Positions 16,156 to 28,096 of a stretch of DNA of 40,956 nucleotides are shown one piece after another (the first letter of the stretch is position 1; each line of letters starts with the position of its first letter). This DNA comes from Mariprofundales bacterium (lineage in GTDB: Bacteria; Pseudomonadota; Zetaproteobacteria; Mariprofundales; J009): contig JAUZRF010000016.1 of the NCBI GenBank assembly GCA_030950645.1, positions 1-40,956 of the forward strand, written 5' to 3'. Below the pieces are notes generated by a model that was not told where the DNA came from, did no database searches, and was given only the letters and a program-made list of their open reading frames with translations. A program made the translations under genes and the position numbers.

Positions 16156-16308
16156 GTAACTACTCAGCTCGCTTCCGGTTTTCCTGATAGCGGCGTTGAA
16201 AAATACTCATTTACAGTAGTAAACTCCGCTTTTTCGCCTTGCTATCAGGAAAACCGGAAGCAATCTTAGCAGTTACAGCCATTTTTGGGTAGGGTAATGA
16301 GTAGTTAC
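16156..16308 (-). repeat. Full-length MITE-like element, reverse orientation, 8-bp TSD (7/8)
   Basis: GTAACTACTCAGCTCGC...AATGAGTAGTTAC; flanks CAAACATC / CAGACATC. Confidence 0.94.
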
Positions 16309-16315
16309 CAGACAT

Positions 16316-17317
16316 CTAAGATTCCATCGCCAGCACCAATTTTCCCGCCATATGTCCCGTTTCAACCCTGCGATGCGCCTCAGCAGCCTGTTCCAATGGC
16401 AGAATGTCATCCACCATCACCATCAACTTCCGCTGCTCCATCATCTGACCACACTGCTCAAGGATTGCCGCCTGATGTTCGGCAGCATCATCCATCCCCA
16501 GCACCATCGGAGTTAACATCAGCTCTTGGCTCAGCCGCACATTGCGCAAGCGCAACCCTTTCCAGTCGGCATCCTGCGGCAGCTGTAACAGCGTGACCAG
16601 ATCGCCATAGGGTCGCACTGATTCCGCAGCTTGATGAAAAGCGACCCCGCCCACGGTATCCAAGGCCATATCCACCCCGCCACCACTCCAGCGCAGCAAC
16701 TCCGCCACCACATCCTGTTGGTCATAACGCAGCACCAAGTCCGCGCCCAATTCCGTCGCCAGCGCAGCCTTCTCCTCGCTACTCACCGTCGTCGCCACCT
16801 CACAACCTGCCTCTTTGGCCAATTGAATCGCCACATGCCCCACTCCACCTGCGCCCGCGTGGATCAACACCTTCATGCCACTAGCAATACCCGCGCGATC
16901 AAACAACGCCTCCCAAGCGGTAATCAACACCAACGGCGCCGCCGCAGCCGTTGCTAAATCCAAACCAATAGGCACCAGCGCCACATACCGGCTATCAACT
17001 ACGGCATACTCGGCATAGCTCCCACATGCCTGCCCTAATCCACCATAACAGTAATAGATCGCATCCCCAGTTTGGAACCCCCGCACATCATCACTGACCG
17101 CCACAACTTCCCCCGCACCATCACACCCCAATACCGCAGGCAACGGCCGATCCATATAGAGCCCATGTGCTCGCAGCTTGGTATCAATCGGGTTCACTCC
17201 GGCCGCAGCCAAGCGCACCAAAACCTGGTGATCACCATCAATCCGAGGCATCGGCAACGCGACAATTTGGAGCACCTCCGGCCCGCCAACCGCTGTCATC
17301 ACTACCGCTCGCATCAT
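16316..17317 (-). CDS. Zinc-type alcohol dehydrogenase / NADPH:quinone reductase-like protein
   Basis: VGGPEVLQ, GVNPIDTKLR, GCDGAGEVVAVS, VLIHAGAGGVGHVAIQLAK motifs. Confidence 0.88.
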   Translation of the reverse strand: MMRAVVMTAVGGPEVLQIVALPMPRIDGDHQVLVRLAAAGVNPIDTKLRAHGLYMDRPLPAVLGCDGAGEVVAVSDDVRGFQTGDAIYYCYGGLGQACGSYAEYAVVDSRYVALVPIGLDLATAAAAPLVLITAWEALFDRAGIASGMKVLIHAGAGGVGHVAIQLAKEAGCEVATTVSSEEKAALATELGADLVLRYDQQDVVAELLRWSGGGVDMALDTVGGVAFHQAAESVRPYGDLVTLLQLPQDADWKGLRLRNVRLSQELMLTPMVLGMDDAAEHQAAILEQCGQMMEQRKLMVMVDDILPLEQAAEAHRRVETGHMAGKLVLAMES

Positions 17318-17363
17318 GTTTCCCTATATCTCCCCACACTATATCTCCTACCCTACATCGTTC

Positions 17364-17516
17364 GTAACTACTCAGCTCACTCCCAGTTTTCCTGATAGCA
17401 GCGTTGAAAAATACGCATTTACAGTAGTAAACTCCGCTTTTTCGCCTTGCTATCAGGAAAACCGGAAGCAATCTGAGCAGTTACAACCATTTTCTAATAG
17501 GGTGCTGAGTCGTTAC
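17364..17516 (-). repeat. Full-length MITE-like element, reverse orientation, perfect 8-bp TSD
   Basis: 153 bp; flanked by CATCGTTC on both sides. Confidence 0.96.
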
Positions 17517-17621
17517 CATCGTTCATTCATGAAAGTATCAGCATCATCTGTGCGCAACAGCTTATCGCGCAGCGAATGATCGGCAATTCCGATCGTTCCC
17601 AAACTCGGCTACCATTGCGCC

Positions 17622-18083
17622 ATGGTTGACCTACAAGCTGCGATCCTGCCACTGCTCGCACTCGATATTGGCGGCAAACGCATCGGGATCGCGGTGTGCG
17701 ATGCATTAGGAATAAGCTGCCGTGGCATCACCTGCCTCCACCGGAATGACCGCCAATGGCCACAGCAGGTATTAGCACAGGCGGAGGCGCGCGGCTGCCA
17801 CGGCATCGTGATTGGCCTGCCCCGCAACATGGACGGCAGTGAAGGTACGCAAGCCAAGGATTGCCGTCAGGCGGCGAAACAACTTGGTAGCCAATGTCCG
17901 CTCCCCATCTACTTTCAAGATGAGCGACTATCCAGTTGGGAAGCCAAAGAGCGACTCTACGCCCAAGGTTTCAATGAAAAAAAAGTGCGCTTAAAGATCG
18001 ACCAGACCGCAGCCGCCATCATTCTTGAGTCTTTTTTAGCACGAAAAGCGTCGTCATCACGACGAGATGTGCCCAGCACATGA
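17622..18083 (+). CDS. ruvX: Holliday junction resolvase-like RuvX/YqgF
   Basis: LALDIGGKRIGIAVCD, IVIGLPRNMDGSEG, FQDERLSSWEA, DQTAAAIILESFL. Confidence 0.9.
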   Translation: MVDLQAAILPLLALDIGGKRIGIAVCDALGISCRGITCLHRNDRQWPQQVLAQAEARGCHGIVIGLPRNMDGSEGTQAKDCRQAAKQLGSQCPLPIYFQDERLSSWEAKERLYAQGFNEKKVRLKIDQTAAAIILESFLARKASSSRRDVPST

Positions 18084-21551: not shown

Positions 21552-21704
21552 GTAACTACTCAGCTCACTCCCGGTTTTCCTGATAGCGGCGTTGAAAAAT
21601 GCGCATTTACAGTAGTAAACTCCACTTTTTCGCCTTGCTATCAGAAAAGTCAGAAACAATCTGAGCAGTTACAGCCATTTTCGGATGGGGTGCTGAGTAG
21701 TTAC
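21552..21704 (-). repeat. Full-length MITE-like element, reverse orientation, perfect 8-bp TSD
   Basis: 153 bp; flanked by CACACATT on both sides. Confidence 0.96.
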
Positions 21705-27866: not shown

Positions 27867-27975
27867 GTAACTGCTCAGATCGCTTCCGGCTTTTCTGGTA
27901 GCAAGGCGAAAAAGCGGAGTTTACTACTGTAAATGAGCATTTTTCAACGCCGCTATCGGGAAAACCAGAAAAAAT
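27867..27975 (+). repeat. MITE-like element, right end truncated, joined to the next copy
   Basis: GTAACTGCTCAGATCGCTTCCGG...GCTATCGGGAAAACCAGAAAAAAT then a second GTAACTGCTCAG. Confidence 0.88.
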
Positions 27976-28096
27976 GTAACTGCTCAGATCGCTTCTGGTT
28001 TTCCCGATAGCAAGGCGAAAAAGCGGAGTTTACTACGGTAAATGAGCATTTTTCAACGCCGCTATCGGGAAAACCAGAAGCGATCTGAGTAGTTAC
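27976..28096 (+). repeat. MITE-like element, short form (121 bp)
   Basis: GTAACTGCTCAGATCGCTTCTGGTTTTCCCGATAGC...GCTATCGGGAAAACCAGAAGCGATCTGAGTAGTTAC, near-perfect inverted arms. Confidence 0.92.

Follow-up and report, generated by a model that had tools for sequence, protein, structure and literature searches.

The 40,956-nt window, the whole stretch of DNA analysed here, contains a 153-bp element (17364-17516, + strand) between two divergently oriented genes, one for a zinc-type alcohol dehydrogenase (16316-17317, - strand) and the other ruvX (17622-18083, + strand), a Holliday-junction resolvase-family gene. A perfect 8-bp target-site duplication (TSD), CATCGTTC, adjoins the element on both sides, as the preliminary description had stated; the left copy (17356-17363) is assigned from the sequence and the TSD statistics given below, and the right copy (17517-17524) is read from the sequence. 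Its left terminal inverted repeat (TIR) is GTAACTACTCAGC (17364-17376, + strand), and named ISBst12-type IS66 elements end in the same 12-mer. The outer right TIR (17504-17516, - strand) reads GTAACGACTCAGC as the reverse complement and differs from the left end at one position. The 13-bp TIR described earlier is thus present, with ends that are not identical: read directly, the termini GTAACTACTCAGC and GCTGAGTCGTTAC pair at 12 of 13 bases.

An end-motif search and the family consensus revealed a third, internal copy of the end, CTGAGCAGTTAC (17473-17484, - strand; GTAACTGCTCAG read from the right), so that the element consists of a 121-bp core and a 32-bp extension. The core (17364-17484, + strand) forms a long imperfect hairpin with a folding z of about -6, and elsewhere in the genome it is a stand-alone form with its own TSD. 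The extension (17485-17516, + strand), delimited by comparison with the family consensus, carries the outer right end, and in that consensus its last 17 bp are the right end of an IS66 remnant in the same genome. The element shows 93% identity to the consensus built from copies with a TSD, and it has no coding capacity. In its length of 153 bp, its TIRs pairing at 12/13 and its lack of any dedicated open reading frame it has the features of a MITE, and the earlier reading of it as free of transposase is upheld. IS66-family insertion sequences encode TnpC; because the element is non-coding, it is a derivative of an insertion sequence and not itself one. Plasmid, phage and viral collections contained no match to the element, and the open literature searched contained no paper that gives this end sequence or describes IS66 MITEs of this kind.

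Copies and their target-site duplications

Within the window, a second 153-bp copy (16156-16308, + strand) has flanks CAAACATC and CAGACATC that match at 7/8 bases, a third (21552-21704, + strand) has the perfect TSD CACACATT, and a 121-bp copy (27976-28096, - strand; TSD 7/8) sits inside another copy, whose start is at 27867. The end 12-mer, allowing up to two mismatches, occurs 24 times in the window versus 0.95 expected. At the left edge (1-355) lies an apparent three-copy array, in which a truncated copy (1-64) precedes a pair (73-226 and 235-355, together 73-355) separated by exactly 8 bp; the two 8-bp spacers, CCTCCACG and AAAAGATC, differ. Five end pairs with this spacing were found in total (e.g. 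L058:61-342 and L047:9796-9827), and in the pairs checked neither outer flank equals the spacer.

The window makes up a single contig in the 1.99-Mb draft genome (134 contigs, 91% complete) of an iron-oxidiser-type bacterium from the order Mariprofundales (Zetaproteobacteria). Genome-wide, 1,255 sites match the end 12-mer with at most one mismatch, versus 15 for the reversed control. Exact matches number 933; of 77 other genomes in the order, none has more than 63, and variant ends carrying T reach up to 92 there. A profile search of 1.56 Mb identified 475 copies, or 3.8% of that DNA, which extrapolates to about 600 copies genome-wide. A simple gene caller places just 7 of 217 copies within genes, versus 76% of random positions, and we infer purifying selection as the cause of this intergenic placement.

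Copies were extracted and their flanks scored, a check that had been proposed in the preliminary description. Among the canonical copies in 1.56 Mb (n=285), 80 have a perfect 8-bp TSD and 42 match at 7/8 bases. In a first sample of 696 kb, the flanks of 214 canonical end pairs matched at 8/8 bases in 40 cases and at 7/8 in 20, and shuffled flanks gave about 0.4 matches at each level. The duplication is exactly 8 bp long, flank agreement ending abruptly beyond it, and a copy inserted into a copy has its own TSD (L054:1185-1322, CTACTGAG, within a larger copy with TSD GATGGAAT). In the 1.56 Mb, at least 7/8 TSD bases match in 85 of 172 copies of the 153-bp type and in 37 of 113 stand-alone copies of the 121-bp type; because both types show TSDs, both lengths are mobile, one through the inner right end and one through the outer. 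Very small forms (42-82 bp) with TSDs were rejected as a further mobile class, since each is unique and looks like a product of internal deletion after insertion.

An empty, pre-insertion site is available within an IS66 gene. A tnpC remnant on contig C51 is split by a 153-bp copy (TSD GAAAAAAT), and joining the flanks of this copy with a single TSD copy restores a 102-aa open reading frame ending in ...STARKNNINPLDTIIRAYQDEPFIPTA, where a Mariprofundaceae relative has ...STARKNKMNAYDVINDAFKGIPFIPS. On the RuvX side of the locus, synteny with the orthologous region is not kept, so no empty-site comparison is possible there.

About half of the canonical copies (141 in 1.56 Mb) have unrelated flanks. 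They are about as near to the consensus as the TSD-bearing copies, and because their flanks keep the same target half-site preference, each flank probably arose in a real insertion. These copies could be due to recombination, deletions, strain mixing or assembly joins; the exchange of flanks by recombination between copies was considered and rejected, no reciprocal partners being present among the 141.

These data confirm that the repeat is a genuine gene-less mobile element, a MITE, as first described. Three findings that could have overturned that description (copies without 8-bp duplications, no empty site, or flank identity running past the element) were looked for and none was made: the copies show 8-bp duplications, an empty site is available and the flanks cease to agree after 8 bp. 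A REP/BIME- or ERIC-like palindrome, retained because it serves the host as an mRNA hairpin, a nucleoid site or a terminator, and spread by other means, would share the strong hairpin (z -6), the intergenic placement (7/217 in genes) and the very high copy number. We consider it highly unlikely because the sharp 8-bp TSDs, the ISBst12 ends and the empty site together demonstrate transposition; moreover, no terminator-like site was found and an Rfam search with the element gave no match. A secondary host role for some copies is compatible with the identification as a MITE.

Target site and ISBst12-type ends

Empty sites reconstructed from 121 TSD-bearing copies show a palindromic preference that reaches 7 bp past the TSD on each side, with a target consensus of about 22 bp, roughly AAYnnTW[VATnnATB]WAnnRTT (brackets enclose the duplicated 8 bp). 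With half of the sites used for training, the model told the remaining half apart from neighbouring positions at an AUC of 0.93. The MITE-site model was also applied to eight autonomous ISBst12-type elements in other bacteria, and their insertion sites gave a combined Z of 5.7, or 4.6 from the bases outside the TSD alone. This fit does not rest on the end sequence and gives separate evidence for the same kind of transposase acting at both sets of sites. End pairs exactly 12 bp apart are also in excess (nine cases). In the best of these (L052:2606-2890), the two TSDs, GTTGGGGA and GGGATAAG, share 4 bp, as though the second copy had taken a fixed position beside the first; the existing tip, 4 bp beyond the new target, may supply part of a half-site.

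IS66 loci from other bacteria were searched with the end query GTAACTRCTCAG (up to two mismatches), and 30 of 39 have a GTAACTACTCAG-type end within 260 bp downstream of the match. Pfam confirmed an IS66 transposase in the loci tested. Several loci have both ends and perfect 8-bp TSDs (L096, TTTTATTT; L097, GAAATTTG; L098, L116, L145, L149, L162 and L166), and the ends of named ISBst12-type elements are likewise GTAACTACTCAG, next to 8-bp TSDs. Transposition of ISDge4, an ISBst12-group element, has been documented with the TIRs GTGACTACTCAGCA and GTAACTGCTCAGCA and the 8-bp direct repeat CCTCGATG (PMC12898284), whereas the ends of classical IS66 begin GTAAGCG (PMC11946415). The IS66 hypothesis of the preliminary description is therefore supported in a refined form, the relevant branch being the single-ORF ISBst12 group and not classical IS66.

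Other Mariprofundales genomes (e.g. G052 and G066) contain related copies with the same 109/32-bp spacing of ends. In G057 the variable base is of the T type in MITE and IS66 ends alike, and in the genome studied here it is of the C type in both. Because MITE and IS66 ends share this base within a genome, the two comparable genomes hint at co-evolution of ends and transposase.

The ends might instead resemble those of ISBst12 by chance, with the MITE mobilised by another family that makes 8-bp duplications, such as an IS256- or ISAs1-like element. Duplications of this length are not unique to IS66. Against such a family, exact 12-mer ends are joined to IS66 transposase genes, with 8-bp TSDs, in many phyla, the MITE and autonomous IS66 elements have a target consensus in common, and ISDge4 moved with these very ends (PMC12898284), which together make it extremely unlikely.

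IS66 remnant and search for an autonomous partner

The preliminary description had proposed searching the genome for an IS66 element with such ends, and a remnant was found, with no intact element. The tnpC remnant (PF03050, 42 bits) is only a C-terminal piece. Its end, GTAACTACTCAGCACCC, has 17 bp identical to the outer right end of the MITE family, and the MITE and IS66 overlap in about these 17 terminal bp only. The DNA beside the remnant (L031:720-1500) contains a tRNA-like sequence and, after it, an integrase-like N-terminal fragment, which points to a genomic island in decay.

The draft genome yielded no intact IS66 transposase, which is weak evidence of absence because the assembly is fragmented, 91% complete and breaks at repeats. 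The 1.56 Mb were also searched for a full-length autonomous element, in the form of two ends separated by 400-6000 bp and flanked by an 8/8 TSD, and none was present. Loss of the intact transposase in assembly is plausible, since in other drafts of the order (e.g. G055) IS66 genes are cut off at contig ends. Many contigs of G055 and G020 stop some 80-300 bp away from a GTAACTATTCAG end, and G055 has C-terminal IS66 fragments there; multi-copy IS66 elements appear to have been lost from these two drafts.

Interpretation and comparison with known elements

The element is very probably a type II MITE, one with nothing but its ends in common with its partner, moved in trans by a single-ORF transposase of the ISBst12 group of the IS66 family, an assignment made because TIR sequence, TSD length and extended target consensus agree. 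The same three features favour the IS66-like transposase proposed in the preliminary description; its action in trans, and the identity of the partner now missing, are what we infer from them. Such a transposase would bind the 12-17-bp end GTAACTACTCAG(CACCC), pair one left with one right end, and insert at the loose palindromic target AAYnnTW-[VATnnATB]-WAnnRTT, where the bracketed 8 bp would be cut in a staggered manner and duplicated. Either of the two right ends, 32 bp apart, would be usable, which would account for the mobility of both the 121-bp and the 153-bp forms, and about 600 copies have accumulated, nearly all between genes. An assembly or binning artefact, in which repeat-rich contigs were misjoined, would suit the contig ends that often lie in or near copies and the roughly half of copies without matching flanks, but its probability is negligible given the many internal copies on long contigs with perfect TSDs and the same 109/32-bp end spacing in the related copies of G052 and G066.

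More tentatively, and at somewhat less than even weight, we propose for this MITE a fuller reading: that a twin-right-end element moves in two lengths and has reached a density among the highest in bacteria, and that ISBst12-group transposases recognise an extended palindrome of about 22 bp with outer half-sites resembling the element's own GTAAC tip, a likeness that would also account for the insertions 12 bp beside existing copies. The top copy number cited in a review of MITEs is 711 ERIC copies in one genome (PMC10969869).

Several hundred copies in a small genome amount to a natural data set with more than 100 verified insertion sites, and the MITE target consensus is transferable to autonomous elements in unrelated bacteria. 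This is useful for the IS66 family and above all its ISBst12 branch, whose transposition is poorly characterised; the mechanism has been termed insufficiently characterised (PMC12898284). At about 600 copies, or about 4% of a 2-Mb genome, the family is also a case for studying MITE multiplication and its effect on intergenic regulation where the partner seems to have been lost.

Classical IS66 (tnpABC) has the GTAA tip and an 8-bp TSD in common with the MITE (PMC11946415) but differs in the sequence past GTAA, and the relatives of the MITE are single-ORF elements. The ISBst12 group (ISDge4, L096, L097 and L128) has GTRACTRCTCAGCA ends, an 8-bp TSD and the palindromic target consensus, as the MITE does; its members are autonomous, 1.4-2 kb long and encode a DDE transposase (intact and 541 aa long in L128), whereas the MITE lacks a transposase and has only the ends in common with them. 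The type II prokaryotic MITEs Chunjie, QMITE and MITEAba12 are likewise short and non-coding, with TIRs and TSDs, mainly intergenic placement and size variants (PMC10969869). Compared with these, the present family has a probable ISBst12-type IS66 partner, a second right end placed 32 bp beyond the first and a density of about 300 copies per Mb, and it is notable for its density, its twin right end and its transferable target consensus.
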